From positions 1-64,000 of the forward strand of contig NZ_BCWP01000015.1 of the NCBI RefSeq assembly GCF_001592265.1: a stretch of DNA of 64,000 nucleotides. Reading direction: 5' to 3'. The notes under the pieces are model-generated. The model was not told the DNA's origin. It ran no database searches and was given only the letters and a program-made list of their open reading frames with translations. The first letter of the stretch is position 1, and every line of letters starts with the position of its first letter. The translations under genes and the position numbers were made by a program. Positions 39,241 to 60,579 of the stretch are shown piece after piece. The stretch is from Curvibacter delicatus NBRC 14919. Its GTDB lineage: Bacteria > Pseudomonadota > Gammaproteobacteria > Burkholderiales > Burkholderiaceae_C.

Positions 39241-39321
39241 TTCCGCATCATGACATCCCCTGGCACGAGGGTTGCGATAAGCATTCCAGGCATCTGCCTT
39301 TCAACCCCAGGAGAGAGCACC

Positions 39322-40224
39322 ATGAGCACAGCCCCCACCGCGGATTCCACCGTCCTGATTTCTCCCGCCGAGCTGCAGGCCCTGCTGGCCAGTGAGCCGG
39401 TGGTCCTCATCGACACACGCGACGCCGACACCTATGCGCAAGGCCACATTGCCGGCGCCGTCAACCTGCGCGAAACCTTCACCTACCTGGCCACCTCCAC
39501 GCCCGAAGGGCTGAAGGAACTCAAGGACACCTTTGCCGCCCACCTGGGCGCCATCGGCCTCTCCGGCAAGGAGACGGCGGTGTTTTACGAAGATGCGATG
39601 AACAGCGGTTACGGCCAGTCCTGCCGCGGTTATTACCTGCTGACCTGGCTGGGTTACCCCAAGGTGAAGGTGCTCAACGGCGGCTTCTCGGCCTGGAAGG
39701 CGGCGGGCCTGCCGGTTTCCACCGCAGCGGTGACGCCGGTGCCGGCCACCTTCCCCACCCACCTCAAGACCGCCGACGTGATGCTGACCAAGGAAGACGT
39801 GGCCGCGGCCCTGGGCACCGATACCGTGCTGCTGGACGTGCGCGACGTGGACGAATGGATTGGTGACAGCTCCAGCCCCTATGGCAAGGACTTCGCACCG
39901 CGCAAGGGCCGCCTGCCAGGCGCCAAGTGGGTGGAGTGGTACCGCTTCATGAAGCCTTCGCCACAGGGCCCGGTGTTCAAGTCGCCGGACGAGGTGCGCG
40001 CCGAATGCGCCACCGCCGGCATCAGCCCGAGCGACACGGTTTACCTCTACTGCTTCAAGGGCGCACGCGCCTCCAACACCTTCCTGGCGCTCAAGCAGGC
40101 CGGCTTCCAGGACGTGCGCATGTACTTCGGCTCGTGGAACGAGTGGTCGCGTGACAACGCGCTGCCGATCGAGTCCGGCCTGCCCTTCAAGAGCGCCGCA
40201 CCGGCGCTGGCCCTGGCGGCCTGA
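39322..40224 (+). CDS. Tandem-rhodanese sulfurtransferase
   Basis: A 300-residue protein with two rhodanese domains (about residues 10-135 and 155-285). The active-site loop of the second reads YCFKGARASNT, with the persulfide-forming Cys followed by the Arg typical of sulfurtransferases. The first domain has VLIDTRDADTYAQGHIAGAVN and is probably structural. Enzymes of this kind move sulfane sulfur from thiosulfate, mercaptopyruvate or persulfides to an acceptor. GGAGAG lies just before the ATG. First gene of a five-gene cluster (39322-44058) whose other members suggest sulfur- or thiol-linked oxidation. Confidence 0.88.
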   Translation: MSTAPTADSTVLISPAELQALLASEPVVLIDTRDADTYAQGHIAGAVNLRETFTYLATSTPEGLKELKDTFAAHLGAIGLSGKETAVFYEDAMNSGYGQSCRGYYLLTWLGYPKVKVLNGGFSAWKAAGLPVSTAAVTPVPATFPTHLKTADVMLTKEDVAAALGTDTVLLDVRDVDEWIGDSSSPYGKDFAPRKGRLPGAKWVEWYRFMKPSPQGPVFKSPDEVRAECATAGISPSDTVYLYCFKGARASNTFLALKQAGFQDVRMYFGSWNEWSRDNALPIESGLPFKSAAPALALAA

Positions 40225-40272
40225 CGCCTGCACCCCCATTTTTCAACACGCAACTGCACTTTAGGAAACACC

Positions 40273-40845
40273 ATGTCCTCCACCGACCTGCTCGAACCCA
40301 CCGCCCCCGTGACCACCGTGAAGGCCTACCTGCGCCCGATCGACCGCGACGGCCTGATGGCCTTTGCCGAGAAAGGCCGCAACAACCCGGCCAGCCGCGG
40401 CACCAACAAGGTCCACACCGTGATGGAAGGCCAGTACCGCTCGCTCAGCTACGTGGGCAACCATGCGCCGGTGGTGGTGGACGAGCCGCTGCACCTGTTC
40501 GGCCAGGACACCGCGCCGGCGCCGGGCGAGATCGTGCTCTCGGGCCTGGGCGGCTGCCTGGCGGTGGGCATCACCGCCGTGGCCACCTGGAAGCGCGTCA
40601 AGCTCACCAAGCTCGAAGTGTTTCTGGAAGGCGACATCGGCAACCCGGCCGCCTGGGGTGCCGACGGCGCGCTGCAGAAAACGCCGCCCGAGATGGGCTT
40701 CCAGGCCATCCGCGTCAAGGTGCTGGTGGAAGGCGATGCGCCGCGTGAGGTGCTGGACGAGATCGTGCAGCACGCCAACTACTACTCGCCGGTGGCCAAC
40801 ACGATGCGCAACCCGATCCCGTTCACCATCGGCCTGGCCGACTGA
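40273..40845 (+). CDS. OsmC-like protein with only one of the two catalytic cysteines
   Basis: A 190-residue OsmC/Ohr-fold protein. The first conserved Cys is present in LSGLGGCLAVGITAVA. The second, normally in a CPVSN-type stretch, is replaced: the segment reads HANYYSPVANTM. Without it the peroxidase disulfide cycle cannot run as in Ohr or OsmC. It may bind a thiol or persulfide ligand instead. It lies between the rhodanese and flavoprotein genes with gaps of about 45 bases. Confidence 0.82.
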   Translation: MSSTDLLEPTAPVTTVKAYLRPIDRDGLMAFAEKGRNNPASRGTNKVHTVMEGQYRSLSYVGNHAPVVVDEPLHLFGQDTAPAPGEIVLSGLGGCLAVGITAVATWKRVKLTKLEVFLEGDIGNPAAWGADGALQKTPPEMGFQAIRVKVLVEGDAPREVLDEIVQHANYYSPVANTMRNPIPFTIGLAD

Positions 40846-40890
40846 ACCTTCACCCCGACATTCCACCCGCTGCCAACCGAGGAGCCCCGC

Positions 40891-42048
40891 ATGAACGCCG
40901 CCGACCTGCCCCGTGAAGTCACCAGCCTGCCGCCACTGTCCGGCGACGCCCTGCTGGCCGCCGTACGTGCGGTGGCACAGGGCCCGCTGCAGCAGCAGGT
41001 GGAAGCGATCGACCGCCAAGGCCACTACCCGGCTGCGGTGCTGCGCCAGCTCGCGGCCGTGGGCGCCATGAGCGCGCACCTGGACGCGCACGCCGGCCCA
41101 GGCAGCTACGCACTGGCCATTCAGGCCATGGCCGAGGTGTCGCGTGTGTGCGGTGCCACCGGCTTCATGATGTGGTGCCAGGCAGTGTGCGGCCTGTACA
41201 TGCAGCAGTCGGGCAACCCGGCGCTGATGGGTGAGGCGCTGATGGAACACGCCAGCGGCGTGGGCCTGGGCGGTACCGCGCTGTCCAACCCGATGAAGAG
41301 CTACGCGCAGATCGAGGGCCTGCTGCTCAAGGCCACCCCGGTGGAAGGCGGCTACCGCATCAACGGCACGCTGCCCTGGGTGAGCAACCTGGGACCGGAC
41401 CATTACTGCGGCGCCATTGCCGCGGTGGTGGACGAGGCACAACAGCCGTTGGACAAGGAAGTGATGTTCCTGCTGCGCTGCAACGCGCCCGGTGTGGAGC
41501 TGCGCGAATGCCCGAGCTTCTCGGCCATGGAAGGCACCGGCACCTACGCCCTGCGCGTGAAAGACCTGTTCATCGGCGCCGACGACCTGATCGCCGACCC
41601 GGCCAAGCCGACCATTGCACGCATCCGCGCCGCCTTCGTCATGCTCCAGTGCGGCATGGCGGTGGGCATCACGCAGGGCGCCATAGACAGCATGTGGGCG
41701 GTCGAGCCGCAACTCGGCCACGTGAACCAGTTCCTGGAAGACCGGCCCGCCGAGCTGCAGGCTGAACTCGATGCCTTGACCGCGCGCGTGATGAAGATGG
41801 CCGAGACACCGTTCGACAGCAGCACCGAGTTTTTCATTGACGTGCTCGATGCGCGGGCGCATGGTGCCGAGCTGTGTCTGCGTGCCGCGCAGTCGGCCCT
41901 GATGCACCAGGGCGCGCGTGGTTACCTGATGAGTTCGGACGTGCAGCGCCGCGTGCGCGAGTCGCATTTCGTGGCCATCGTCACGCCGGCCATCAAACAC
42001 CTGCGCAAGGAGATGGCGCGCCTGAGCGCCGAGGAGCTGCCGGCATGA
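40891..42048 (+). CDS. Acyl-CoA-dehydrogenase-family flavoprotein, possible monooxygenase
   Basis: A 385-residue protein of the acyl-CoA dehydrogenase fold: an N-terminal helical domain (about residues 15-125), a central beta region ([13 protein letters not shown], then [12 protein letters not shown]), and a C-terminal four-helix region. It lacks an obvious catalytic base in the usual place and resembles the DszC/SfnB branch, whose members are flavin-dependent monooxygenases acting on sulfur or aromatic compounds. The exact substrate is unknown. A four-base overlap (ATGA) couples it to the rubredoxin-reductase fusion gene, a likely electron partner. Confidence 0.75.
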
Positions 42049-43382
42049 ACACACGCACCCCGATTGCCGAGGCGGTCCAAGGTACGAGTGCCGCACGGCA
42101 GCCCGAAGGCACGAAGGCCCCCTCGGGGGGCAGCGCAGCACACGCAGTGGCAAGCGTGGGGGCCACACTCGCTCCGTTTGAGCAGTACATCTGCAACGCC
42201 TGCGGCTACATCTACAACGAAGCCGATGGCGACCCCGACAGCGGCCTGCCCGCCGGCACCCGCTTCGCCGACATCCCGGACGACTGGGCCTGCCCGCTGT
42301 GCGGTGTGACCAAGGCCGACTTTGCGCCCTACACGCCGCCAGACCTGGCCGCGTTGCAGGCGCAAGCCGCTTGCACCCCGGCGCTGGCCGCGCGCCAGAC
42401 ACCGGGCGTGGTGATCGTCGGCGCCGGCCGCGCCGGCTGGCAACTGGCCGAAACGCTGCGCGCCCTGGATGCGGCGCTGCCCATCACGCTGGTGACCGCC
42501 TGCGCCGGCGACGTGTACGATAAGCCGCTGCTGTCGGTGGCGGTGGCGCGCCAACTCGACGCGGACAAGCTGGTGCGCGAGACCGGTGCCGCCGCCGCGC
42601 AGCGCCTGAACGTGCGCCTGCTGGCGCACACCCATGCCATCCGCATCTGCGCCGATACGCAGCAGTTGCGCACCACACGCGGCACCTTGCCCTACCAGCA
42701 CCTTGTGCTGGCGCACGGCGCGCAGCCGGCGCTGCCGCCCAGCCTGCCGGCCGCGCTGTGCTGGCGCGTCAATCATCTGGGCGCCTACCTGCAATTGCGT
42801 GCGGCACTCGGAGACACATCCAAGGACGTGCTGATCGTCGGCGCCGGCTTGGTGGGCAGCGAACTGGCCAACGATCTGGCGCTGGGCGGCCACCGCGTCA
42901 CCCTGCTGGACACACAGCCCGAACCGTTGGCACGCTGGCACGACGCACAGGCCGGCGCACAGGTGCTGCAGGCTTGGCAGGATCTGCCGATCCGTTTTGT
43001 TGGCGGCGTATGCGTGGCCCGTGTGGAGAAGATCCAGGGGCGCTACCGCGTGAGCACCGAGTGCGGCCAACGTTTTGCCGCCGACCAGGTGATTGCCGCT
43101 ACCGGCCTGCAGACACCGAGCCGACTGGCCCAGGGCGCCGGGCTGGCATGGCAAAACGGCATTGCGGTGACGCCCGACACCTTGCGCACCAGCGACCCGC
43201 ACATCCACGCCCTGGGCGACTGCATCACGGTGAACGGGCAGGCCAGCCGTTACATCGAACCGATCGTGCGCCAGGCCCGCACCATTGCGGCCGACATCTG
43301 CGGCTGCACGCCGCAGCCCTACGAAAGCCGGCCAGCCATGGTGCGGGTGAAGACAACCTCGCTGCCCTTGACGCTGCATTGA
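42045..43382 (+). CDS. Rubredoxin fused to FAD-dependent NAD(P)H rubredoxin reductase
   Basis: A 445-residue fusion. The rubredoxin domain (about residues 48-95) has both iron-binding pairs, [15 protein letters not shown] and [12 protein letters not shown] linker leads to a reductase with an FAD motif [15 protein letters not shown], an NAD(P) motif [17 protein letters not shown] and the C-terminal HALGDC FAD segment. It would pass electrons from NAD(P)H through FAD to rubredoxin. Residues about 7-42 are encoded by a dispersed GC-rich repeat. The start overlaps the flavoprotein stop. Rubredoxin reductases usually feed alkane hydroxylases; none is here. Confidence 0.88.
42070..42165 (+). repeat. 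GC-rich dispersed repeat inside the rubredoxin-fusion gene
   Basis: A segment including GGCCCCCTCGGGGGGCAG and ending GGCAAGCGTGGGGGCC, with complementary GGCCCCC and GGGGGCC ends. Elements like this are usually intergenic in Comamonadaceae genomes (recalled, not searched). Here it is translated in frame as a Ser/Ala/Gly-rich stretch ahead of the rubredoxin domain. Confidence 0.6.
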
Positions 43383-43386
43383 ACAC

Positions 43387-44058
43387 ATGACGACATCCGC
43401 CACCCCTGCGTTCGATCTGTACGGTTTCTGGCGCACCTCGGCCACCTACCGCGTGCGCGTGGCGCTGGCGATGAAGGGGTTGCCGGTGCACGAGCACATC
43501 GTCAACCTCGACGCCGGCGAGCAGCACAGCCCGGTCTACCGCGCGCTCAACCCCCTGGGCGGTATCCCGACGCTGGTGGAACCGGGCCATGCGCCCATCA
43601 CCCAGTCGCTGGCCATTCTGGAATTTCTGGAAGAGACCCAGCCCGAGCCGCCGCTGTTGCCTAGCGAGCGCCACGCGCGGGCGCGGGTGCGCTCGCTGGC
43701 AGGCATGCTGGCGGCGGACACGCATCCGCTGATCACACCGCGGGTGAGGAAATACCTCAATGCCTCCCATGGCCTTGACGATGCCGCCTGGCGTGCCTGG
43801 CAGACCCACTGGTTCGGCACCGGGTTGCGCGCCGTGGAACAGCGCCTGGCCAGTGAGGCCGAAACCGGCGTCTTCTGCCACGGCGACCAGCCCGGCATGG
43901 CCGACATCTGCCTGGCCAGCGTGCTGGCGGTGATGCAGGTGTTCCAGATCGAGGTGCGTGACATCCCGACCATCGAGCGCATCGTGGCGCGTTGCCAGAC
44001 GCTGGCGCCCTTCGCCCGCGCCCACCCGCGCCGCCAGCCGGGTGCGCCGGCGGCCTGA
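43387..44058 (+). CDS. Zeta-class glutathione S-transferase / maleylacetoacetate isomerase-like
   Basis: A 223-residue GST. The thioredoxin-like N-domain starts LYGFWRTSATYRVRVALAMKG; the zeta-class SSxSxRVR site is present as RTSATYRVR, and the cis-Pro loop reads GGIPTLVE. The C-domain has the helical DxxLA pattern (MADICLASVL). Maleylacetoacetate isomerases share this architecture, but no tyrosine-degradation genes are nearby. In this cluster a glutathione conjugate or thiol-transfer role is plausible. It starts four bases after the rubredoxin-fusion stop and converges with phnE. Confidence 0.85.
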   Translation: MTTSATPAFDLYGFWRTSATYRVRVALAMKGLPVHEHIVNLDAGEQHSPVYRALNPLGGIPTLVEPGHAPITQSLAILEFLEETQPEPPLLPSERHARARVRSLAGMLAADTHPLITPRVRKYLNASHGLDDAAWRAWQTHWFGTGLRAVEQRLASEAETGVFCHGDQPGMADICLASVLAVMQVFQIEVRDIPTIERIVARCQTLAPFARAHPRRQPGAPAA

Positions 44059-44078: not shown

Positions 44079-44882
44079 TCAGACCAGCAGCTTGCGGATG
44101 CGGGCCGACACCAGGTCGATCGCGCTGACGGTGACGATGATGATCAGCATCACCGCGCTGGTTTCGGCGTACTGGAAGCCGCGGATGATCTCCCACAGCA
44201 CGACGCCGATGCCGCCGGCCCCGACCATGCCCACCACCGAGGCCGAACGCACGTTGGATTCGAAGCGGTAGAGCGTGAACGAAATCCAGAGCGGCATGAC
44301 TTGCGGGATGACGCCGTAGATGATTTCGTGCAACGCGCTGGCGCCGGTGGCACGGATACCCTCCACCGGCTGCGGGTCGATGGACTCCACGGCCTCCGAG
44401 AACAGCTTGGCCAGGATGCCGGCGGTGTGGATCCACAAGGCCAGCACACCGGCAAACGGCCCCAGGCCGACGGCGACGACAAACAGCATGGCAAACACCA
44501 TCTCGTTGATGGCACGGCAGGCGTCCATCAGGCGGCGCATGGGCTGGTAGACCCACCATGGCACGATGTTCGACGAGGCCAGCAGCCCCATGGGCACAGC
44601 GGTGATGACCGCCAGCGCCGTGCCCCAGAGCGCGATCTGCAGCGTGACCACCATTTCCTTCACATACAGCGGCCACTGGCTGAAGTTGGGCGGGAAAAAC
44701 TCGGCCGCGTAGGTGGCCATGTTGCCGCCATCGCGCCAGAGCTCGAGCGGGCGCATGTCGGCGCCGCGCCACGAGGCCGCGAGCAGGACCAGCAGCAGGC
44801 CCCAGACGAGGTAGGCACCCAGGCTGCGCTTGAGCGCCGGCGGTGCCGGTGCCAGGGCCGGCAAGGGAGCGGCGGTACTCAT
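44079..44882 (-). CDS. phnE: Phosphonate ABC transporter permease PhnE
   Basis: A 267-residue inner-membrane permease with about six hydrophobic segments. The EAA loop reads [23 protein letters not shown]-like (here [16 protein letters not shown]), the contact point for the ATPase. It imports phosphonates with PhnD and PhnC. The start overlaps the phnD stop by four bases. Last gene of the phosphonate operon on the minus strand. Confidence 0.93.
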
Positions 44883-45823
44883 TTCAGGGCGGCCAGCTTC
44901 TTGTCGATCTCGGCCAGGCGGCTCTTCTTGTCGGCGTCGCCCAGGGTGGCGTCGGCCTCGACCTTGTTGCGCTGGCCGAACAGGTCCAGCTGGCGGATCG
45001 GGGTCAGCTGGGCATTGCTCGACTCGCGGAACTGCGACCAGTTCATGCGGGCCATGATGTCCTTCTCGGCCGGATTGGTCTTGGCGTAGTTGAGGAAGAA
45101 GGCCTTGATCTTGGCCTTGGTGGCCTCCGGCAGGTCCTTGCGCATGACCAGCGGATCGGACGGGATGAGCGGCGAGGTCCAGATCACGCGCAGCTCCTTG
45201 GCCTTCTCCGGCAGGTTCTTCTCCAGCTTGGCCATGTTCTCGCTGTTGAAGGTGGCCACATCCACCTGCTTGTTGGCCACGGCCATGGCATTGGTTTCAT
45301 GGTTGGCCGAACGCACGACCTTGAAATGGGTCTTGGCGTCGATCTTGTTCTGCGCGAACACGTAATAACCCGGCACCAGGAAGCCGGAGGTGGAGTTGGG
45401 GTCGCCGTTGCCGAAGCTGTAGCTCTTGCCGTTCTTCAGCACGTCGTCGAGCGACTTGATCGGGCTGTCCTTGTGCACGATCATCTGCGAGTAGTAGCCC
45501 TCGGTGCCGTCAACGTTGACAACCTTGGCGAAGATTTCGCCGTTGGCGCGGTCCACCGCCTCCATGGCCGACTTGTTGCCGAACCAGCCCAGCTGCACCT
45601 TGTTGAAGCGCATGCCTTCGATGATGCCGGCGTAGTCCGGTGCGAAGAAGGCGTTGACCTTCAGGCCGGTCTGTTTGGCCATCTCGTCGAGCACGGGTTG
45701 CCAGGCGGTCTTGAGGTTCTGCGTCGAATCGGTGGAGATGATGCCGAAGTTGATGCTGTCCTGCGCCCAGGCGCAAGTCAGGGACAGGCCCAGCGCCAGG
45801 CCGGCCAGTGCTTTTTTGAACAT
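44879..45823 (-). CDS. phnD: Phosphonate-binding periplasmic protein PhnD
   Basis: A 314-residue solute-binding protein. The signal peptide is about residues 1-21 ([16 protein letters not shown]). The mature protein starts [35 protein letters not shown] and [21 protein letters not shown] are typical of PhnD. It delivers alkylphosphonates or related esters to PhnE. The phnC stop lies 40 bases upstream. Confidence 0.93.
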
Positions 45824-45862
45824 GGAAAGAACTCCCGTAGAGGTTGAAGGAGGGGTGGAGGA

Positions 45863-46726
45863 TCAGGCGACTTGCGCCACCGGGACTTGCCAGCCGGAGG
45901 CCGGCGCATGGGACACAGGCAGGGGGGATACCTGCGGTGCGGAGGGCTCTGCCAACAGCTCGTCGGCGTGCATGCCGTAAAGCTCGCGCAACAGCCGCGG
46001 TGTAAGCGCGGCGGACGGGCCGTCATAGACCACCTGCCCCTGGTGCAGCGCCACCACACGCGGGCAGTACTTCATGGCCATCTCCACCTGGTGCAGCGAA
46101 ACGATGACGGTGCAGCCGTCTTCACGGTTGATGCGGGCCAGCGTCTCCATCACCTTGCGTGAGGACTCGGGGTCGAGCGAGGCGATCGGCTCGTCGGCCA
46201 GCACCACCCGGGCGCCCTGCACCAGCGTGCGGGCGATGGCGGCACGCTGCTGCTGGCCGCCGGACAGGGTGGAGGCCCGCTGGGCATGGCACTCGGCAAT
46301 GCCCACGCGGGCCAGGGCGTCCAGCGCCACGCTGCGTTCGTGGGCGTTGAACCAGCGCAGCCAGCTGCGCCAGCCGGGCGTGCGGTGCAGCAGGCCGACC
46401 AGCACGTTCATCAGCACCGGCAGACGGTCCACCAGGTTGAACTGCTGGAACACGAAGCCGATCTGGGAACGCACCCTGCGGATGTTGCGATGGATGCGGC
46501 CGCCCTGCTGCACGCAGCAGCCGTGGATTTCGATCAGGGAGTCGCTGGCGCCGTCGGCTGCCACCAAGCCGGCCACATGGCGCAGCAGGGTGGACTTGCC
46601 GGAACCGGAAGCGCCGATGAGCGCCACCATCTCGCCCTGCTGCACGCTCAGGTTGATGTCACGCAGGGCATGCTTGCCGTTGGCGAAATGCTTGTTGAGT
46701 TGTCGGATATGCAATGCAGTGTTCAT
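45863..46726 (-). CDS. phnC: Phosphonate ABC transporter ATPase PhnC
   Basis: A 287-residue ATPase with Walker [13 protein letters not shown]-loop [17 protein letters not shown] signature LSGGQQQR and Walker [17 protein letters not shown]. The phrase [16 protein letters not shown] is characteristic of PhnC. The ATG at 46726 has a GAGGA-like ribosome site; an in-frame TTG at 46738 lies before it. A Pho box about 49 bases upstream suggests that phnCDE also has its own phosphate-starvation promoter. Confidence 0.94.
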
Positions 46727-46761
46727 GGTTGTCCTCAAGTCGTCTAGACATCCTGCTCAGT

Positions 46762-46792
46762 GTGAAAGCGTGTTGTGACAGCGGTTTGACAG
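46762..46792 (-). promoter_or_regulatory. Pho box (PhoB-binding site) upstream of phnC
   Basis: On the minus strand: CTGTCAA (46792-46786), four bases, CTGTCAC (46781-46775), then a degenerate third unit CTTTCAC (46768-46762). The Pho-box consensus is direct CTGTCAT-type heptamers at 11-base period. The spacing of the first two is exact. Confidence 0.75.
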
Positions 46793-46826
46793 CCCGGCGG
46801 CATTTGCGTGTCAGCGTAGGCCGGGG

Positions 46827-47486
46827 TCAGCAGCCGTCCCGTGCGCCGTACAGCGCCAGGAAGTGCCGCACATCGCCCATGGCCGGCAGGCGTTCAACCA
46901 GCGTGGCGTGGTCCCAGTCCCACCAGGCGGTGGCCTCGATGGCGCAGGCGATGGCAGGCGCAAAGCGCATGCGCAGCAGACGCGCCGGCGCCCCGGCCAC
47001 GATGGCGTAGGCTGGCACATCCTTGGTCACCACTGAATTGCTGCCCACCACCGCACCGTTGCCGATGCGCACGCCGGGCATGATCACCACGCCATGGCCG
47101 ATCCAGGTGTCATGGCCGATGTGCACGCGCTGGCGGCGACGCCAGGCGAAGAACTCGGCATCGTCCTGCGCATGCGCGCCGTAGCGCTGGCGACGGTAGG
47201 TGATGTGGTGCAGCGTGACGCGCTCCATCGGATGGAAGCCGGGGTTGATGCGCACCATGGCAGCGATGTTGGAGAACTTGCCGATGTCCGTCGAGATCAG
47301 CTCGCAGCCGCGGCTCAGGTAGCTGTAGTCGTCGAGCAGGCTGTCAGTCATGTGCACGCCCTGCCCGACCTCGGTATAGCGGCCGAAGCGGCAGTCGGCA
47401 ATCACGGCATCGGGCGCGATCGCCGGCTCGCGGCCCAGTTCGACATCGGGCGGCAGGTTGCGGGCGGCGATATGGGTGTAGTGCAT
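46827..47486 (-). CDS. Phosphonate-operon hexapeptide-repeat acetyltransferase
   Basis: A 219-residue left-handed beta-helix acetyltransferase. Hexapeptide repeats are visible around IGKFSNIAAMVRINPG and IGHDTWIGHGVVIMPGVRIGNGAVVGSNSVVTKDV, with the xenobiotic/CAT-type His in the loop. This gene type recurs in C-P lyase operons, but its substrate there is not established. The ATG at 47486 has AGGGA upstream; an in-frame GTG at 47504 overlapping the phnM stop is an alternative start. It sits between phnM and phnC. Confidence 0.8.
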   Translation of the reverse strand: MHYTHIAARNLPPDVELGREPAIAPDAVIADCRFGRYTEVGQGVHMTDSLLDDYSYLSRGCELISTDIGKFSNIAAMVRINPGFHPMERVTLHHITYRRQRYGAHAQDDAEFFAWRRRQRVHIGHDTWIGHGVVIMPGVRIGNGAVVGSNSVVTKDVPAYAIVAGAPARLLRMRFAPAIACAIEATAWWDWDHATLVERLPAMGDVRHFLALYGARDGC

Positions 47487-47500
47487 CGCGTGTCCCTGCG

Positions 47501-48658
47501 TCACAGCACACGGCGGCCTTCGCGCCAGACCGCGCGCACCACCGCCTGGCGGGCACCGCCCGGCATCTCGGCCAGGCGCACCTGCACCAGGTCGGCCCGC
47601 TGGCCGGCAACCAGTTCACCGCGGTCGTGCAGGCCGGTGGCGCGCGCCGGGTTGCGCGTCACCGTGGCCACGGCCTGCGGCAGTGTCATCAGGCCGTCGT
47701 CCACCAGGCGCATGACGCTGCTGAGCAGGCTGCCCGGCACGTAGTCGGAAGAAAGAATGTCGAGCAGGCCGTGGCGTGCCAGCTCGGCCGCTGCCACGTT
47801 GCCGGAGTGCGAGCCGCCGCGCACGACGTTGGGGCCGCCCATGACAGTCAGCAGGCCCAGTTCGTGCGCGGTGCGTGCCGCGGCCACCGTGGTGGGGAAC
47901 TCCGACATGCTGGCGCCTTCGGCATGGGCCTGCTGCACGTGGGTCGGCGTGGTGTCGTCGTGACTGGCCAGCGCGATGCCGTGCGTGCGGCAGTAGTCCA
48001 CGAAGTAGGCGCGGTGCGGCTCGGCGTACTGTGCCTGCAGCTCCGCAGCGTGGGCCACCTGGCGCTCGAACTTCTCGGCACTCCAGCCCTTCTTGCCGGT
48101 GTAGTAGATGCGCGCCTGCTCGATGTCTTCCCACTGGCGCTGGCCCGGGGTGTGGTCCATCAGCGAGATCAGCGACAGGCGCGGATGGTCGTGGAAGGGC
48201 TGGAACAGATCGATGGTGTTGGGCGCCGGCAGCTCGCAGCGAACATGCAGGTGGTGGTCGGCACGCAGCAGGTCCTGCGCTGTGCAGCTGTCCAGCGTGG
48301 CCAGCACGCCGTTCCAGGCGCTGCCGCGCAGGCTCTCGGGATCGGCCTCGCCGACACCCAGCGCGTCGAACACGGTGGTGATGCCGGCGGCCGCGATCTC
48401 GGCGTCGTGCGCCAGCAGCGCCGGCAGCTCGGCCCAGTGCACCTTGGGCCGCGGCATCAGGTGGCGCTCGAAATTGTCGGTGTGCATTTCCACCAGACCG
48501 GGCAGCAGGTAGTCGCCCTCGAGGTCGATGGCCTGCGGCGCGGCGCTGCTGCCGCTGTCGATGGCGGCGATGCGGCCCTCGGTGGCGGCCAGTGTGCCGA
48601 GCAGTACCTCGTCGGGCAGCACGAGGCGGGCATTCTTGAAGACGGTGGCGGTGTTCAT
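47501..48658 (-). CDS. phnM: Ribosyl-triphosphonate diphosphatase PhnM
   Basis: A 385-residue amidohydrolase-fold enzyme. It removes diphosphate from the alkylphosphonate ribosyl triphosphate made by PhnGHI. It has the PhnM signature LLPGLVEMHTDNFERHLMPRP with metal ligands, SLMDHTPGQRQW, and HDDTTPTHVQQAH later on. Its start overlaps the phnL stop by four bases. Confidence 0.95.
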   Translation of the reverse strand: MNTATVFKNARLVLPDEVLLGTLAATEGRIAAIDSGSSAAPQAIDLEGDYLLPGLVEMHTDNFERHLMPRPKVHWAELPALLAHDAEIAAAGITTVFDALGVGEADPESLRGSAWNGVLATLDSCTAQDLLRADHHLHVRCELPAPNTIDLFQPFHDHPRLSLISLMDHTPGQRQWEDIEQARIYYTGKKGWSAEKFERQVAHAAELQAQYAEPHRAYFVDYCRTHGIALASHDDTTPTHVQQAHAEGASMSEFPTTVAAARTAHELGLLTVMGGPNVVRGGSHSGNVAAAELARHGLLDILSSDYVPGSLLSSVMRLVDDGLMTLPQAVATVTRNPARATGLHDRGELVAGQRADLVQVRLAEMPGGARQAVVRAVWREGRRVL

Positions 48659-49371
48659 GCGCTTCTCCGGAAGTCGGCAACGTTGACGCGGCGGGTAGCG
48701 ACCTCGGCCCCGACGGCGGTGTCATGGAAGATGCCCACCAGGGCGGCGCCGCGCGCCACCGCTTCGTGGATGAGTTCGATCACGGTGCGCGTGTTGGCGG
48801 CATCGAGCGAGGCGGTGGGCTCGTCGAGCAGCAGCAGCGGCCGCGGTTTGATCATGTTGCGCGCGATGTTGATGCGCTGCTGCTCGCCGCCGGAGAAAGT
48901 GGCCGGCGGCAGGTGCCACAGGCGCTCGGGGATGCGCAGCCGCGTCAACCACTGGCGGGCCTGCTCGCGCGCGGCCTCCAGCGCGACCGCGTCGCCCGCG
49001 GCGTCCTCGGCCAGCGGCTCGGCGACCACATCGAGCGCCGAGACGCGCGGTATCACGCGCAGGAACTGGCTGACGTAGCCAATGGTGTGGCGGCGCAGCT
49101 CCACCAGCATGCGCGGTGTGGCCTCGGTGATCTCCACCGCCGCGCCGCCGGGCGGCTGCAGCGTGATGCGGCCGGCACTGGCGCGGTAGTTGGCGTAGAT
49201 GAGCTTGAGCAGGGTGCTCTTGCCCATGCCGGAGGGGCCGTCGAGCACGATGCACTCGCCGGGATGGACGCTGAGGTCGACCTGGTCGAGCACCGGCAAT
49301 TCGGCGCCGTGCTGGTGGTGCAGGGTGAAGCGCTTGGCCACCCCTTTCATCTGGAGCAGGGGTGCGGTCAT
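48655..49371 (-). CDS. phnL: C-P lyase accessory ABC-type ATPase PhnL
   Basis: A 238-residue ATPase with Walker A LDGPSGMGKSTLLKL, signature FSGGEQQRINIAR and Walker B LLLLDEPTASLD. PhnL has no membrane partner and docks on the PhnGHIJ(K) core. A four-base overlap with phnK upstream and phnM downstream shows tight coupling. Confidence 0.94.
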   Translation of the reverse strand: MTAPLLQMKGVAKRFTLHHQHGAELPVLDQVDLSVHPGECIVLDGPSGMGKSTLLKLIYANYRASAGRITLQPPGGAAVEITEATPRMLVELRRHTIGYVSQFLRVIPRVSALDVVAEPLAEDAAGDAVALEAAREQARQWLTRLRIPERLWHLPPATFSGGEQQRINIARNMIKPRPLLLLDEPTASLDAANTRTVIELIHEAVARGAALVGIFHDTAVGAEVATRRVNVADFRRSA

Positions 49372-50150
49372 GGTTGAAGTACCGAAGAGACGAGAAGCTG
49401 GGTGTAGGGGTGCTGCGGGTCATCGAGCACCTGGTCGGTGAGGCCCGACTCGACCACGCGGCCGCGCTGCATGACCATCATGCGGTGCGCCAGCAGGCGC
49501 GCCACCGCGAGGTCGTGCGTGACGATGATGACGGCCAGCTGCATCTGGCGCGTGAGCTGGCGCAGCAGGTCGAGCAGGCGGGCCTGCACCGAGACGTCCA
49601 GCCCCGAGGTCGGCTCGTCCATGAACACCAGGCGTGGCTGCGTGACCAGGTTGCGTGCGATCTGCAGGCGCTGGCGCATGCCGCCGGAGAAGGCGCGCGG
49701 CGCCTCGTCGATGCGCGCCGGGTCGATCTCCACGCGTTGCAGCCAGTCCTGCGCGGTGGTGCGCAGGCGGCCGTAATGGCGCTCGCCCAGGCCCATCAGG
49801 CGTTCGCCGACGTTGGCGCCGGCCGAGACGTCCATGCGCAGGCCGTCGGCCGCGTTCTGGTGCACGAAGCCCCAGTCGGTGCGGGCCAGCAGGCGGCGCT
49901 CGGCCTCGCTCATGGCGTAGACCTCCTGCAGGGTACCGGTGCGGTTCTGGAACTGCACGCTGCCGGCGTCGGGCAGGCTGCGCGCAGCCACGGCATTGAG
50001 CAGGGTGGACTTGCCCGAGCCGGACTCGCCCACCACGGCCAGCACCTCGCCAGGCCAGAGATCAAAGGAGGCGTCGTGCAGCGCCACGCGCTCGCCATAG
50101 CTTTTTTGGATGCCGCGGACCTGCAGGAGCGGTGTAGTGGTTGTTGTCAT
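49368..50150 (-). CDS. phnK: C-P lyase core-associated ATPase PhnK
   Basis: A 260-residue ABC-type ATPase with Walker [16 protein letters not shown], signature [13 protein letters not shown] and Walker [15 protein letters not shown]. PhnK binds the PhnJ subunit of the C-P lyase core. The ATG at 50150 begins one base after the GNAT gene's stop codon; a longer in-frame reading to 50168 overlaps that gene and is less likely. Confidence 0.94.
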
Positions 50151-50151
50151 G

Positions 50152-50601
50152 TCAAGGCTCAATGACAAAGCTCAAGCCGTGTTGGGCAAAGCCGAGCGAT
50201 TCATAGAAGGCATGCGCCGCATGGCGCTTGCGGTTGGAGGAGAGGGCCAGCTTGTAGCAACAGGCCTGGCGCGCCTGCTCGACGGCGTGGGCCATCATGC
50301 GGCGACCAATGCCCTGGCCCTGACAGTCGGGTAACACCACCACGTCTTCGGCAATCGCCGAGGGCGTGCCGCGGTGCGCGAGGTTGTGCATCACCAGCAA
50401 GGCATAACTGCCGACGACGCGGCCGGACGACTCGTCACAGGCCACAAACAGGCGGTAGTTGGGGTAGCGGACGAACTCGGCGAAGAGACCTTGCGCCTCT
50501 TCTTCGCTCAGCACGCGCCCGTCGTCCATGCCCGGCTGGGCGTACAGAGCCAGCACGGCGGGGATGTCGGTCGCCTGGGCCTGGCGCATGACGATGTTCA
50601 T
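50152..50601 (-). CDS. GNAT acetyltransferase inside the C-P lyase operon (PhnO-like role possible)
   Basis: A 149-residue GNAT protein. The acetyl-CoA loop reads VVLPDCQGQGIGRRMM, preceded by AIAEDVV, and the C-terminal strand SLGFAQHGLSFVI follows FYE. PhnO of enterobacteria acetylates aminoalkylphosphonates so that C-P lyase can use them; a similar job is likely for this protein, from position. It overlaps phnJ by four bases and abuts phnK. Confidence 0.8.
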   Translation of the reverse strand: MNIVMRQAQATDIPAVLALYAQPGMDDGRVLSEEEAQGLFAEFVRYPNYRLFVACDESSGRVVGSYALLVMHNLAHRGTPSAIAEDVVVLPDCQGQGIGRRMMAHAVEQARQACCYKLALSSNRKRHAAHAFYESLGFAQHGLSFVIEP

Positions 50602-51470
50602 GCCACCTCCCGGTCGGCGGTGCTGGCAACATCGGCGGCCGCCTGCTGGCGTTCCTGGCAGTAGTCGGAATCAGAGCAGACGTGCATGCGGCCGCCGGCG
50701 TCGTCGGTGATGACTTCGTCGAGGAAGCTGTCGGTGGCACCGCACAGCGCGCAGGCCGCGTCCCAGCGCTGCACCTCGAACGGGTGGTCGTCGAAGGCCA
50801 GGCTTTCCACCCGGGTGTAGGGCGGCACGGCGTAGATGCGTTTTTCACGTCCGGCGCCGAACAGCTGCAGCGCCGGGTTCATGTGCATCTTGGGGTTGTC
50901 GAACTTCGGGATCGGCGACGGCGCCATGACGTAGCGGTCGTTCACCAAGACGGGATAGTCGTAGGTGGTGGCGATATGGCCGTAGCGCGCGATGTCCTCG
51001 TACAGCTTGACGTGCATCAGGCCGTACTCGGCCAGGCCGTGCAGCATGCGCGTCTCGGCCTCGCGCGGCTCCAGGCGCTGCATGGGCTCGGGCACCGGCA
51101 CCTGGTAGACGATGACCTGGCCCTCGCGCAGCGGCGTCTCGGGGATGCGGTGGCGCGTCTGGATCAGCGTGGCCTCCGTGGTGTGGGTGGTGGTGGCCAC
51201 ATCGGTGGTGCGCGCAAAGAAACGCCGGATGTTGACCGCGTTGACGGTGTCATCCGAACCCTGGTCGATGACCTTGAGCACGTCCTGCGGCCCGATGACG
51301 GAGGCCGTGACCTGGATGCCACCGGTGCCCCAGCCGTAAGGCAGTGGCATCTCGCGCGAGCCGAACGGCACCTGGTAACCGGGGATGGCCACGGCCTTGA
51401 GGATGGCGCGGCGGATCATGCGCTTGGTGCGCTCGTCGAGGTAGGCGAAATTGACTTGCGCGGCGCTCAT
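50598..51470 (-). CDS. phnJ: C-P lyase, radical-SAM subunit PhnJ
   Basis: A 290-residue catalytic subunit that breaks the C-P bond. The N-terminus NFAYLDERTKRMIRRAILKAVAIPGYQVPFGSREMPLPYGWGTGG is strongly conserved (pieces quoted as markers). The iron-sulfur cysteines near the C-terminus appear as CALCGATDSF and later CSDSDYC, matching the C-x2-C-x21-C-x5-C pattern. Joined to phnI by a four-base overlap. Confidence 0.96.
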   Translation of the reverse strand: MSAAQVNFAYLDERTKRMIRRAILKAVAIPGYQVPFGSREMPLPYGWGTGGIQVTASVIGPQDVLKVIDQGSDDTVNAVNIRRFFARTTDVATTTHTTEATLIQTRHRIPETPLREGQVIVYQVPVPEPMQRLEPREAETRMLHGLAEYGLMHVKLYEDIARYGHIATTYDYPVLVNDRYVMAPSPIPKFDNPKMHMNPALQLFGAGREKRIYAVPPYTRVESLAFDDHPFEVQRWDAACALCGATDSFLDEVITDDAGGRMHVCSDSDYCQERQQAAADVASTADREVA

Positions 51471-52567
51471 GCCTCATCTCCTGCTGTCGTAGGTGACCTG
51501 TGGTCAGCTCGCATGCGGCGTACCAGCTCCAGCTCGGACTGGAAGTCCACGTAATGCGGCAGCTTCAGGTGCTGCACAAAACCCGAGGCCTCCAGGCTGT
51601 CGGAATGCGAGAGCACGAACTCCTGCATCTGCGCCGGCGACTCGATGCTCTCGCCCAGTTCGTCGGCACGCAGCGCGCGGTCCACCAGGCTCATGGCCAT
51701 GGCCTTGCGTTCACTGTGGCCGAAGGCCAGGCCGTAACCGCGCGTGAACTGCGGCGGCTCGCTCTTGCTGCCAGCGAACTGGTTGACCATCTCGCATTCG
51801 GTGATTTCCAGGTCGCCGATGGAAATGGCAAAACCCAGCTCCTCGGGCTCGACCTCCAGCGCGACTTCGCCGAAGCGGATTTCACCCACAAAGGGGTGGC
51901 TGTGCGAGTAGCCGCGCTGGGTTGAATAGGCCATGGAGAGCAGGAAGCCCTCGTCGCCGCGCGCCAGGTTTTGCAGACGGGTGGCGCGGTCGGCCGGAAA
52001 GCGCAGCGGCTCGCGCGTCAGGTCCATCGGGTCCGGGTCGCCCGGTGGCATGGGCCGGTTTTCGATCAGGCCTTCCTGGTTCAGCAGGTCGACCACGCGC
52101 GGCGTGGCCGGCTCGGGCGCGGCGGGTACTGCGCCAGACGCTGCAGACTCCTCTTGCGCGTTGGCCAGCAGCGTGAAATCGAGCAGGCGCTGGGTGTAGT
52201 CGTAAGTCGGGCCCAGCACCTGGCCGCCCGGCAAGTCCTTGAAGGTGGCAGAGATGCGCCGCTGCAGCGTCATGCGCGCGGTATCCAGCGCACAGGTGGT
52301 GCCCAGGCGCGGCAGCGTGGCACGGTAGGCGCGCAAGAGAAAGATGGCTTCCACCAGATCGCCAGCGGCCTGCTTGATGGCCAGCGCGGCGAGTTCGGGG
52401 TCGTAGACCGAGCCCTCGGTCATGACACGGTCCACCGCCAGCTTGAGCTGCGCGCGGATCTGCGCCACCGAGAGTTCCGGCAGCGCGGTGTCGCCGCGGC
52501 GCTGCGCCGCCAGCAACCGGTAGCTGTTGAGGATGGCGGCTTCCCCGCCCTTGACGGCCACGTACAT
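51467..52567 (-). CDS. phnI: C-P lyase complex subunit PhnI
   Basis: A 366-residue core subunit acting with PhnG, PhnH and PhnL to attach the phosphonate to ribose 5-triphosphate in place of adenine. The start MYVAVKGGEAAILNSYRLL is the family's normal N-terminus. QRGYSHSHPFVGEIR and FTRGYGLAFGHSERKAMAM are further markers. Longer readings upstream overlap phnH and are rejected. It ends with an overlap into phnJ. Confidence 0.95.
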   Translation of the reverse strand: MYVAVKGGEAAILNSYRLLAAQRRGDTALPELSVAQIRAQLKLAVDRVMTEGSVYDPELAALAIKQAAGDLVEAIFLLRAYRATLPRLGTTCALDTARMTLQRRISATFKDLPGGQVLGPTYDYTQRLLDFTLLANAQEESAASGAVPAAPEPATPRVVDLLNQEGLIENRPMPPGDPDPMDLTREPLRFPADRATRLQNLARGDEGFLLSMAYSTQRGYSHSHPFVGEIRFGEVALEVEPEELGFAISIGDLEITECEMVNQFAGSKSEPPQFTRGYGLAFGHSERKAMAMSLVDRALRADELGESIESPAQMQEFVLSHSDSLEASGFVQHLKLPHYVDFQSELELVRRMRADHRSPTTAGDEA

Positions 52568-52569
52568 GC

Positions 52570-53196
52570 TCAGGCCTCCTTCTGCTGTTCGATGCGAGTG
52601 GTGCGTGGCAGGCCGACGATCTGCCGGCCGGTGGCCAGCAGCACGTCCACACCGCGCGGGAAGAGGGCGTGGTTGGCTTGCCACTGCGCCACGAAGCCGC
52701 GGTCCAGCCCTTCCACCTGCAGGCCCGCCACATCCTGGATACCGGGGCCGCTCAGGCGCCACGGTGCGGTGGCTGCCGGCACGGCGTGCAATGCCGCCAC
52801 GTCGATGACACAGGTGGTCGACTGGTCGGGGTAGCTGTCACTGCCCAGGCTGAAACTGTCCAGCGGTTGCAGCACATCCGCCGCGGCCAGCCAGGCAAAG
52901 TGCGCCTGCGCCGGCTGCTCTGTCAGGCGGCAACCGGTATGGAAGCGCAGCCAGGCCGCAGCGCCGCTGTTGCGCAGGGCGGGCGACAGCCAGAGCTTGC
53001 AATCGGCATCCAGCAAGGCTAGCAGCACGGCGGCCGAAGCCGCATGGCCGCTGGGCGGCACCTCGGCATCGTGCTCGACTGTCACCGGCCGGCCGGGATG
53101 CGACAGCGCCTGCAGCGCGGCACGGAAGACAGATTGACTGCCATGTGCCTCGTGGGAGAAGCCGGCACCCAAGGTGGCGAGTGCATCCGCGTTCAT
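52570..53196 (-). CDS. phnH: C-P lyase complex subunit PhnH
   Basis: A 208-residue core subunit with a PLP-transferase-like fold lacking cofactor. It has FRAALQALSHPGRPV near the N-terminus and the C-terminal GVDVLLATGRQIVGLPRTTRI stretch typical of PhnH. The start at 53196 overlaps the phnG stop (ATGA). phnI starts two bases after its stop. Confidence 0.94.
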   Translation of the reverse strand: MNADALATLGAGFSHEAHGSQSVFRAALQALSHPGRPVTVEHDAEVPPSGHAASAAVLLALLDADCKLWLSPALRNSGAAAWLRFHTGCRLTEQPAQAHFAWLAAADVLQPLDSFSLGSDSYPDQSTTCVIDVAALHAVPAATAPWRLSGPGIQDVAGLQVEGLDRGFVAQWQANHALFPRGVDVLLATGRQIVGLPRTTRIEQQKEA

Positions 53197-53699
53197 GCGC
53201 CCTCCTCCTCGTCGTCGTTGTCGGCGCCGCTCTCGCGCGCCAGCGTGAAGAAGTCCACCTTGGTACTCTGCGTGCGGGCGGCCTGCTCGGCGCGCCGGCG
53301 CGCCAGGTGCTGACGCACGGGGGTCAGCAGCGCGGCATCGAGCCCGTCCTGCTGCGCCGGGTCCTGCAGCAGTGCGTCGGCCAGCGCGGCCAGCTGCGCC
53401 TGACGGTGCGAGCGGCCCAGCACGTAGGCCACGCCCACGGCCGCCTGTTCGGCCGCGCCCACGCGCAGGGCGCAACGCGTGACCGTGACCTCGCCCAGGT
53501 TGAAGCGCTCCCCGGTGCCACCGACGCGGCCCTGCACCATCATCAGGCCGGTCTCCGGGCGGCGCAGCCAGCGCGGTTCGGCCGCCTGCGGGCCGAGCGC
53601 GGACTCCAGCAACGGCAGCGGCGCGCGCGCCAGCAGGGCCATCCAGTCCGGGCGTTGCAGCGGCCGGTTGGGGCCGGGGTTGTCAAATGCATGAAACAT
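53193..53699 (-). CDS. phnG: C-P lyase complex subunit PhnG
   Basis: A 168-residue core subunit. Typical segments are WMALLARAPLPLLE, GLMMVQGRVGGTGERFNLGEVTVTRCAL and GVAYVLGRSHRQAQLAALADALLQD. First gene of the twelve-gene minus-strand phosphonate operon. Its promoter lies in the 73-base gap shared with phnF, where a HutC-type palindrome sits at 53718-53729. The acidic tail DNDDEEEGA is unusual but harmless. Confidence 0.94.
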   Translation of the reverse strand: MFHAFDNPGPNRPLQRPDWMALLARAPLPLLESALGPQAAEPRWLRRPETGLMMVQGRVGGTGERFNLGEVTVTRCALRVGAAEQAAVGVAYVLGRSHRQAQLAALADALLQDPAQQDGLDAALLTPVRQHLARRRAEQAARTQSTKVDFFTLARESGADNDDEEEGA

Positions 53700-53717
53700 G
53701 TCCGTGGTACCCTAAAG

Positions 53718-57153: not shown

Positions 57154-57624
57154 TCACAGCCCCAGATCGCTCAGGCCCGGATGGTCGTCCGGGCGGCGGC
57201 CCAACGGCCAGAAGAACTTGCGCTCTTCCGCCTTGATCGGCAGGTCGTTGATGCTGGCAAAGCGCCGCTGCATGAAACCCTGCTCGTTGAACTCCCAGTT
57301 TTCGTTGCCGTAGGAACGGAACCACTGGCCGGCATCATCGCGCCATTCGTAGGCAAAACGCACCGCAATGCGGTTGCCGCTATGGGCCCACAGCTCCTTG
57401 ATGAGGCGGTAGTCCAGTTCGCGCACCCACTTGCGCGCCAGGAACTCGCGCACCTGCGCACGCCCGACCGGGAACTCGGCGCGGTTGCGCCAGCGCGTGT
57501 CTTCGGTATAGACCTGCACCACCCGGTCCGGGTCGCGCGAGTTCCAGGCGTCTTCGGCCAGGCGCACCTTCTGTGCGGCGGTCTCAAGGGTAAAGGGTGG
57601 CAGCGGCGGTTTGGTTTCCATCAT
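57154..57624 (-). CDS. DUF1348 / SnoaL-like (NTF2-fold) protein
   Basis: A 156-residue protein of the DUF1348 family: an NTF2-like cone with [29 protein letters not shown] at the start and [23 protein letters not shown] in the middle. The fold suits a small enzyme or ligand binder, but no reaction is known. It is divergent from a TetR gene, with two palindromic operators in the shared promoter, so it is the likely target of that regulator. An in-frame ATG at 57621 is an equivalent start. Confidence 0.85.
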
Positions 57625-57710: not shown

Positions 57711-58316
57711 ATGCACCTCACAGAACCCGCCGACACCCGGAACCTCTCCGCCCGCGAACGCATCCTGCTGACCGCACATGAGCTGTTCTACCGCGAAGGC
57801 ATCCGCGCGACGGGCATCGACCGCGTGATCGCGGCGTCCGGTGTGACAAAAGTCACCTTCTACCGGCACTTCCCGAGCAAGAACGACCTCATCCTGGCCT
57901 TTCTGGAATACCGGCACCAGCGCTGGATGGACTGGTTCACCGATGCCTTGCAGCGCAAGGGCCCAGGCCTGAAAGCGCTGGTGCCGGCGCTGGCGGAGTG
58001 GTTCGGCGATGCGGATTTCCGCGGCTGTGCGTTCATCAACAGCGTCAGCGAACTGGGTGGCACGCAGCCCGAGGTGGTGGCGATCGCACAACGCCACAAG
58101 CAGGACATGGTGGCGGCCATCGCGACGTTGCTGCCGCCGTCGAAACAGCGTGCGCGCGACGCCCAGGCCATTGCGCTCGCGGTGGATGGCGCCATCATCC
58201 GGGCGCAGTTCGACCAGGCAGCCGATGCAGCGCTGCAGGCGCTGGAACGGATTTTGAAGTCGCTGCAGGCCAGCGCACCCCACCACCCCATGCCGGCGAA
58301 ACGCACGGCACACTGA
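57711..58316 (+). CDS. TetR/AcrR-family repressor
   Basis: A 201-residue regulator. The N-terminal helix-turn-helix reads ILLTAHELFYREGIRATGIDRVIAASGVTKVTFYRHFPSKNDL in TetR order, and the C-terminal ligand domain is helical. It probably represses itself and the divergent DUF1348 gene through the twin operators. The ligand is unknown. Convergent with cynS, with a long hairpin between them. Confidence 0.9.
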   Translation: MHLTEPADTRNLSARERILLTAHELFYREGIRATGIDRVIAASGVTKVTFYRHFPSKNDLILAFLEYRHQRWMDWFTDALQRKGPGLKALVPALAEWFGDADFRGCAFINSVSELGGTQPEVVAIAQRHKQDMVAAIATLLPPSKQRARDAQAIALAVDGAIIRAQFDQAADAALQALERILKSLQASAPHHPMPAKRTAH

Positions 58317-58364: not shown

Positions 58365-58808
58365 TCAATACTGCTTGTACGGCAGGAACTTGCCCGACAG
58401 CACCACGTTGACACGGTCGCCTTTCGGGTCGGGCTGGCGCACGATGTCCATGCTGAAGTCGATGGCGCTCATGATGCCGTCGCCGAACTCCTCGTGGATC
58501 AGTTCCTTGATGGTGCTGCCGTAGACGCTGACGATCTCGTACCAGCGGTAGATCAGCGGGTCGGTGGGCACCGGCGTGGGCAACGAGCCTTTGTAGGGCA
58601 CGACCTGCAGCCATTTCTGCTCTTCGACGCTGAGGCCGAAGATCTTGCCCAGGATCTTGGCCTGCTTGGCGTCGAAAGTCATCTGGCCCAGGCAACCGGC
58701 GGTGACCCACTCCTTGGAGAGGCCGACCTTCTTGGCCACATCGTCCCACTTCAGGCCCTTGGACACTTTGGTGGCAATGATTTTTTCGGTGACGTCGTTG
58801 CGGTTCAT
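58365..58808 (-). CDS. cynS: Cyanate hydratase (cyanase)
   Basis: A 147-residue enzyme converting cyanate and bicarbonate to ammonia and carbon dioxide. The active-site residues are found in YRWYEIVSVYGSTIKELIHEEFGDGIMSAIDF: Arg and Glu of RWYE and the Ser of MSAIDF. The N-terminal domain is helical. It is the last gene of the cyanate/nitrate uptake operon and shows that cyanate is a probable substrate. The start at 58808 gives the usual length. Confidence 0.95.
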   Translation of the reverse strand: MNRNDVTEKIIATKVSKGLKWDDVAKKVGLSKEWVTAGCLGQMTFDAKQAKILGKIFGLSVEEQKWLQVVPYKGSLPTPVPTDPLIYRWYEIVSVYGSTIKELIHEEFGDGIMSAIDFSMDIVRQPDPKGDRVNVVLSGKFLPYKQY

Positions 58809-60578: not shown

Positions 60579-60579
60579 G

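Follow-up and report, generated by a model that had tools for sequence, protein, structure and literature searches.

A cyanase-linked rubredoxin–flavoprotein gene set in Curvibacter delicatus and its possible role in the oxidation of thiocyanate to cyanate

The window analyzed here is a stretch of 64,000 nucleotides from Curvibacter delicatus NBRC 14919 (Burkholderiales; contig NZ_BCWP01000015.1, positions 1 to 64,000 of the forward strand). It contains a row of five plus-strand genes (39322–44058) that encode a rhodanese, an OsmC-like protein, a flavoprotein, a rubredoxin-reductase fusion and a glutathione S-transferase (GST); the first four form a recurring module. The link of this module to cyanate is well supported, as relatives of the flavoprotein gene recurrently lie near the cyanase gene cynS. 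Tentatively, and at slightly less than an even chance, we propose that the module belongs to a sigma-54-controlled nitrogen-scavenging pathway that would form cyanate from thiocyanate inside the cell.

A Recurring Redox Gene Set

The original prediction, made from the window alone, described five genes in the same direction with short gaps or overlaps, and their coordinates were confirmed:

39322–40224, + strand: two-domain rhodanese (sulfurtransferase); two stretches match PF00581 Rhodanese
40273–40845, + strand: OsmC-like protein with one conserved Cys; PF02566 OsmC
40891–42048, + strand: acyl-CoA-dehydrogenase-fold flavoprotein, proposed oxygenase; PF02771 Acyl-CoA_dh_N
42045–43382, + strand: fusion protein of rubredoxin and a NorW-like FAD/NAD(P)H reductase, which would supply electrons; PF00301 Rubredoxin and PF07992 Pyr_redox_2
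43387–44058, + strand: zeta-class GST / maleylacetoacetate isomerase; TIGR01262 maiA, 217.9 bits, cut-off 171.05

The flavoprotein stop and the start of the rubredoxin-reductase fusion overlap in ATGA. The remaining acyl-CoA dehydrogenase domains of the flavoprotein score under their Pfam cut-offs, and the top NCBIfam match of the reductase fusion is NorW (230.9 bits, under the cut-off of 392). Both rhodanese cysteines are highly conserved, Cys101 in 62 and Cys244 in 64 of 65 sequences. Selenocysteine was considered for two relatives with one TGA inside the match and was rejected: the aligned stretch without TGA reaches query residue 376, and the TGA is read as an ordinary stop near the gene end.

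Searches with the flavoprotein gave 121 matches in named genomes, of which the best 80 were taken. It was also found in 27 of 300 order-level genomes, in 17 of 398 genomes of the phylum (five shared with the order set) and in 28 of 72,556 plasmid-collection records. In total 120 loci were examined at length, namely 80 from named genomes, 33 further genome stretches and seven of the 28 plasmid records, and locus counts were taken from a tblastn table of probe proteins. Locus L123 was dropped as it is on the same contig as L106, genomes G212, G196, G202 and G288 were left out of the long-stretch loci, and an eighth plasmid record stands outside the counts. The loci are not independent, and by title most of the named 80 belong to Comamonadaceae or other Burkholderiales; all 121 flavoproteins, from the 120 loci and the window, differ from one another in the core. 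Two remote loci, L154 (genome G133, 35%) and L155 (G119, 31%), were counted and may fall outside the family.

The 120 loci include 104 with OsmC, 102 with rubredoxin, 91 with the reductase, 64 with rhodanese and six with GST. These counts are lower bounds, because several contigs end near the module. Rhodanese, OsmC, flavoprotein and rubredoxin-reductase are thus a recurring module and GST is an occasional passenger. The idea of a recurring redox gene set with a sulfurtransferase was borne out, with rhodanese at about half of the loci, and four of the five genes proposed to act together do co-occur widely; the fifth, GST, found no support as a pathway member. In six loci (L137, L139, L140, L129, L132 and L133), a DUF302-like protein, named by eye, is encoded between flavoprotein and rubredoxin. 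No paper describing the gene set was found in the open-licence literature, which misses most subscription journals.

Link to Cyanase and a Cyanate-Type Importer

Further downstream the window contains cynS in one row with an NrtABD/CynABD-type ATP-binding cassette (ABC) importer (58850–61980) and a two-component system beside it:

57711–58316, + strand: TetR-type regulator (named by eye), adjoins cynS in several relatives
58365–58808, − strand: cynS, cyanase; TIGR00673, 164.8 bits, cut-off 113.3
58850–59722, − strand: ABC importer ATPase, ntrCD / CynD type; 286.2 bits, just below the cut-off of 291.8
59712–60632, − strand: ABC importer permease, NrtB / CynB type; named by eye, start may be further in
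60580–61980, − strand: ABC importer substrate-binding protein, CmpA/NrtA/CynA type; NMT1_2
62118–62774, − strand: NarL-type response regulator, named by eye
62776–63996, − strand: PAS histidine kinase, named by eye

Across the examined loci, 64 of 120 have cynS no more than 11.2 kb from the flavoprotein gene (47 of 80 named, 14 of 33 further genome stretches and 3 of 7 plasmid loci). Divided by the thiol partner of the flavoprotein, which can be OsmC or an AhpD-like protein (see section “Electron Supply and the OsmC/AhpD Exchange”), cynS was nearby in 63 of 104 OsmC-type loci, in none of 13 AhpD-type loci and in one of three with neither. The association also holds for whole genomes. Of the 300 order-level genomes 66 contain cynS; it was present in 15 of 27 genomes with the flavoprotein vs. 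51 of 273 others (Fisher one-sided p 6.5e-5) and in 13 of 16 OsmC-type genomes vs. 53 of 284 others (Fisher p 3.3e-7). These p-values are optimistic since the genomes share ancestry, and in the second test the OsmC and AhpD classes were assigned by hand, with the unclassified G133, G202, G212 and G288 placed among the others. Both genes lie within 20 kb of each other in nine of the 15 genomes that have both.

The arrangement differs between lineages. In the Curvibacter relatives L030 and L031 the cynS start lies about 5 kb from the flavoprotein start, vs. 17 kb in the window. A Marinobacter plasmid carries a row of ABC importer, sigma-54 activator, OsmC, flavoprotein, reductase and cynS, and an Acetobacter plasmid a row of OsmC, flavoprotein, rubredoxin fusion, NrtA, NrtB, ATPase and cynS. 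The partnership is kept in betaproteobacteria (window relatives), alphaproteobacteria (Acetobacter) and gammaproteobacteria (Marinobacter), although the gene order varies. In three plasmid loci without cynS, the importer was found beside OsmC and the flavoprotein. The original prediction had treated the five genes as an isolated unit, which does not hold for a window that also encodes cynS, a cyanate-type importer and a sigma-54 activator and has a promoter site.

Two neighbors were noted in passing. A DUF1348 (SnoaL-like) gene (57154–57624) adjoins cynS, and 21 of 120 loci have a homolog close to the module. The minus-strand row between the module and cynS (44079–53700) resembles, by eye, a phosphonate (phnCDE / C-P lyase) cluster, unlike in L030 and L031.

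A comparable system is the cynFABDS cluster of Pseudomonas pseudoalcaligenes CECT5344, which shares with the window the cyanase, the CynABD importer, a sigma-54 regulator and a sigma-54 promoter before cynA (PMC6627978). That cluster consists of cynF and cynABDS, and OsmC does not figure in the main text (PMC6627978); the window adds the oxidizing module, a possible source of cyanate.

Predicted Control by Sigma-54

Two promoter-like sites and one regulator gene would connect the module and the importer row to sigma-54, and rpoN is present in the source genome:

29846–31489, + strand: GAF-sigma54-activator-Fis regulator (Pfam GAF, Sigma54_activat, HTH_8), about 7.8 kb from the rhodanese gene
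39261–39276, + strand: sigma-54 (−24/−12) promoter-like site TGGCACGAGGGTTGCG; the rhodanese ATG follows after about 45 bp
62015–62030, − strand: sigma-54-like site TGGCCCGACCTTTGCG; cynA lies about 35 bp downstream

A consensus scan of the window alone was not significant (three sites found vs. 4.12 expected, one mismatch allowed); the site before the rhodanese gene is significant because its position is conserved across loci. Of the OsmC-type loci, 100 have sufficient upstream sequence, and in 90 of these a −24/−12 site precedes the first gene (2.1 expected from a first-order Markov model); all ten core bases are present in 72 of the 90. Among the controls, the opposite strand gave an equal score in 1 of 100 loci, sequence at a greater upstream distance in 2 of 97, and three stretches within the flavoprotein gene in 2, 0 and 0 of 104. 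A weaker sigma-54-like site was found before cynA in 51 of 72 loci vs. 1.5 expected from single-base shuffles, many of them reading TGGCCC; the window and, for some loci, short duplicates entered this count, and the position in L074 is a negative-offset artefact.

A sigma-54 activator was encoded in 74 of 120 loci, mostly of the GAF type and in four (L145, L146, L148 and L150) of the PAS type, and in many relatives the homolog of the window activator lies directly upstream of the rhodanese or OsmC gene. Counts for the SBP2 and s54PAS probes were not used, since these cross-match with cynA and s54GAF. Promoter and activator together place the module in the predicted sigma-54 regulon.

The Flavoprotein Lacks the Catalytic Glutamate of Acyl-CoA Dehydrogenases

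An AlphaFold model of the flavoprotein, built with 50 close sequences, has the acyl-CoA dehydrogenase fold (predicted local distance difference test score 84.8, predicted template modeling score 0.86). Foldseek gave butyryl- and short-chain acyl-CoA dehydrogenases as top matches, with a template modeling score of about 0.8 and 17–23% identity among the rows shown, and together with the Protein Data Bank (PDB) profile search it pointed to short-chain, butyryl- and isovaleryl-CoA dehydrogenases as the nearest solved structures. In the profile search the short-chain enzyme was best (96.3 bits), and Rv3094c (42.2 bits) and HSA hydroxylase (37.2 bits), both of which we take to be monooxygenases, ranked far lower. 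The catalytic Glu sits in an IYEGT-type motif in medium- and short-chain acyl-CoA dehydrogenases and at an alternative site in isovaleryl-CoA dehydrogenase. Thr365 of the flavoprotein, present in 120 of 121 sequences, aligns with the former position (8i4p alignment) and Ala248 with the latter (4kto alignment).

Among 34 diverse flavoproteins the invariant residues include Trp95, Ser132-Asn133, Lys136, Glu142, Pro162-Trp163, Ser165, Gln253, Arg322, Arg353-Arg354, Arg356-Glu357 and Pro366. Judged by these tests, the flavoprotein represents a distinct family built on this fold rather than a functional dehydrogenase. It shares the fold and the top profile scores with short-chain and isovaleryl-CoA dehydrogenases but lacks their catalytic Glu; an ordinary acyl-CoA dehydrogenase with a catalytic Glu, which would have refuted the original prediction, was thus not found.

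DszC, HsaA and HpaB are flavin monooxygenases that have the acyl-CoA dehydrogenase fold, and the flavoprotein has in common with them the fold and the loss of the dehydrogenase Glu. The likeness to DszC or SfnB that had been suggested was not recovered: no DszC/SfnB model was among the NCBIfam matches at E ≤ 0.01, in a library not checked for having one, and only the HsaA and HpaB models matched weakly (21.7 and 20.3 bits). Also, the neighboring gene encodes a rubredoxin reductase and not a flavin reductase as in the DszC/HsaA/HpaB type.

Electron Supply and the OsmC/AhpD Exchange

A rubredoxin, fused or separate, was encoded in 102 of 120 loci. One exception is L151, where the row contains rhodanese, cynS and a reductase together with what is, by eye, a 2Fe-2S ferredoxin. 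On the flavoprotein tree L151 groups with the Rhodobacteraceae locus L161 (support 90), which encodes a ferredoxin-reductase-type protein with a Reductase_C domain. This exchange of rubredoxin for ferredoxin, seen in few loci, suggests one-electron reduction of the flavoprotein by a small iron protein instead of the use of free reduced flavin. Rubredoxin-rubredoxin reductase pairs serve alkane hydroxylases; those systems use the same electron-supply parts, but in the module they are fused and paired with a flavoprotein, and no alkane hydroxylase was recognized by eye among 60 flanking clusters.

The thiol partner of the flavoprotein is exchangeable as well. OsmC/Ohr thiol peroxidases use two catalytic cysteines. 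In the module OsmC, Cys95 is present in 105 of 105 sequences, and Ser172-Pro173 occupies what we take, by motif, to be the place of the second cysteine, with Ser172 in 105 of 105; the protein thus lacks the cysteine pair of these peroxidases. An AhpD-like protein replaces OsmC in 13 of 120 loci. The hallmark of AhpD is a CxxC motif with a downstream His, and C77, F79, C80 and H84 (CxFC motif) are conserved in 13 of 13. For the AhpD of L138, both PF02627 CMD and the ahpD core domain score above cut-off. None of the 13 AhpD-type loci has the sigma-54 site or a nearby cynS.

In a tree of 89 flavoproteins the AhpD label requires four changes vs. a shuffled mean of 10.6. L155 and L160 are long AhpD branches, and two separate AhpD groups remain without both. 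From this tree, the exchange of OsmC and AhpD seems to have happened more than once. A further AhpD-type row was noted in Neisseria gonorrhoeae (L164, 3315–5362), with homologs of the AhpD-like gene, flavoprotein and rubredoxin; its AhpD is 93% identical to that of L138 and its flavoprotein 41% to that of the window, and no other module probe matched there at E 1e-5.

Proposed Pathway and Alternative Explanations

Most likely the pathway passes through cyanate, which leaves thiocyanate and cyanide as candidates, and for thiocyanate as the substrate we see the chances as about balanced. In the proposed route a CynABD/NrtABD-type importer would bring thiocyanate into the cell. Electrons would flow from NADH via the reductase and rubredoxin (the 2Fe-2S ferredoxin in L151) to the flavoprotein, and the reduced flavoprotein would activate O2 and oxidize the sulfur of SCN−, yielding OCN− and sulfane sulfur. 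The one-Cys OsmC, or the CxFC AhpD, and rhodanese may accept this sulfur or a reactive intermediate such as hypothiocyanite. The net reaction would be SCN− + O2 + NADH + H+ → OCN− + S(0) + NAD+ + H2O, after which cyanase, with an activity established for its family, would convert cyanate to ammonia and CO2. The identity of the substrate, the chemistry of the oxygenase and the path of the sulfur are inferences. The original prediction had proposed an organosulfur or thiol compound; inorganic thiocyanate is the likely substrate instead.

Thiocyanate is favored because genes for the handling of released sulfur occur at the loci, namely rhodanese in 64, a metallo-beta-lactamase resembling the dioxygenase part of Blh (persulfide dioxygenase) in three and a family 2A encapsulin in two. 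The Blh-like gene follows the rubredoxin-reductase gene in L142 and L143 and cynS in L158; the L142 protein (383.1 bits, under the cut-off of 625) holds the dioxygenase part only. In the source genome the persulfide dioxygenase model gave five partial matches, the best with 70.2 bits, all below that cut-off. The encapsulin shell gene was identified in L152 (NCBIfam) with a homolog in L134; in L152 it is followed, by eye, by a cysteine desulfurase cargo gene.

The proposed route would achieve the same net conversion of thiocyanate to cyanate and sulfur as thiocyanate dehydrogenase. In PMC5778177 this copper enzyme represents the cyanate route and thiocyanate hydrolase the carbonyl sulfide route. 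Thiocyanate dehydrogenase passes electrons to cytochrome c (PMC5778177), whereas the module combines a flavoprotein with a rubredoxin-reductase and presumably uses O2. For a groundwater consortium, PMC6440457 reports no loss of SCN− without oxygen, inhibition by ammonium and few recognized degraders. An O2-using, nitrogen-repressed enzyme could explain this behavior of the consortium.

Several observations weigh against the thiocyanate pathway. The cynS gene is absent nearby in 41 of 104 OsmC-type and in the 13 AhpD-type loci, some on short contigs and some not. Three of the 16 OsmC-type genomes lack it altogether, in the AhpD-type genome G119 (31% match) it is on a separate contig, and in the window it is 17 kb from the module with other genes between. 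CynABD may simply import cyanate (PMC6627978). At 56 of 120 loci, some of them on short contigs, no rhodanese was detected nearby, so that sulfur transfer of this kind is not essential; genes for persulfide-dioxygenase-like proteins and encapsulin were seen only in the few loci given above. We know of no precedent for a rubredoxin that feeds an oxygenase with acyl-CoA dehydrogenase fold. Lastly, the nitrile hydratase / thiocyanate hydrolase alpha model gave 11 partial matches in the source genome, eight in tandem on contig C3 and three on C6, two of these within one 162-residue frame, and such a gene could still be present. The tandem matches on C3 (G000:C3:19518-22678) look like a leader-peptide precursor family of ribosomally synthesized and post-translationally modified peptides.

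Of the other explanations, one that we regard as unlikely, but with the highest chance among them, is the breakdown of a different small sulfur or nitrogen compound, such as an isothiocyanate, a thioamide or an organosulfur anion. Its products would include cyanate where OsmC is the partner, but possibly just sulfur where AhpD is. Of all explanations this comes closest to the original prediction; the lack of cynS and sigma-54 sites in the AhpD branch fits it, as substrates may differ within the family, and the binding proteins of the importers show a likeness to the SsuA (sulfonate) family, under cut-off. Alone, however, it leaves the recurrent cyanase partner unexplained. A little less probable still, though the main rival to the oxidation of thiocyanate, is a cyanide monooxygenase, in which a flavin hydroperoxide would oxidize hydrogen cyanide (HCN) or CN− to cyanate ahead of cyanase and rhodanese would be a side guard that turns cyanide into thiocyanate. 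It fits the same cynS link, rhodanese is the classic cyanide sink, and at L153 (the same location as L121) genes that by eye are cytochrome bd/Cio-like adjoin the module; they matched no other locus. Such an enzyme was proposed early and its existence was not experimentally demonstrated, according to PMC11049912, and the route is also drawn in PMC5778177. Thiocyanate is favored over cyanide because the importer is kept in the three plasmid loci without cynS and diffusible HCN needs none; moreover, the persulfide-dioxygenase-like and encapsulin neighbors, though few, point to released sulfur.

We consider it improbable that the module serves stress defense, with rubredoxin electrons passed via the flavoprotein to OsmC or AhpD for the reduction of hypothiocyanite, peroxide or persulfide without any oxygenation. 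The replacement of OsmC by AhpD at these loci speaks for such a role, both proteins belong to thiol peroxidase families and rubredoxin systems often serve peroxide defense; yet an OsmC without a second Cys does not suit it, and a sigma-54 promoter, an importer and cyanase would be unexpected. An ordinary acyl-CoA dehydrogenase among unrelated neighbors has hardly any likelihood: the fold and the closest sequence relatives are those of acyl-CoA dehydrogenases, but the catalytic Glu is missing at both known places, the partners recur and no gene for an electron-transferring flavoprotein was recognized by eye among the 60 flanking clusters.

Implications

The thiocyanate pathway, if true, would add a rubredoxin-fed branch to the flavin oxygenases. 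With somewhat less confidence than we give to the pathway itself, we suggest that the module could be the missing gene set by which heterotrophic bacteria convert thiocyanate (perhaps cyanide) to cyanate with O2. It would then comprise a new class of flavin oxygenase with the acyl-CoA dehydrogenase fold, fed with single electrons by rubredoxin or ferredoxin and assisted by an exchangeable OsmC or AhpD thiol partner, followed by cyanase. Such a gene set would bear on the clean-up of mining and coking waste.

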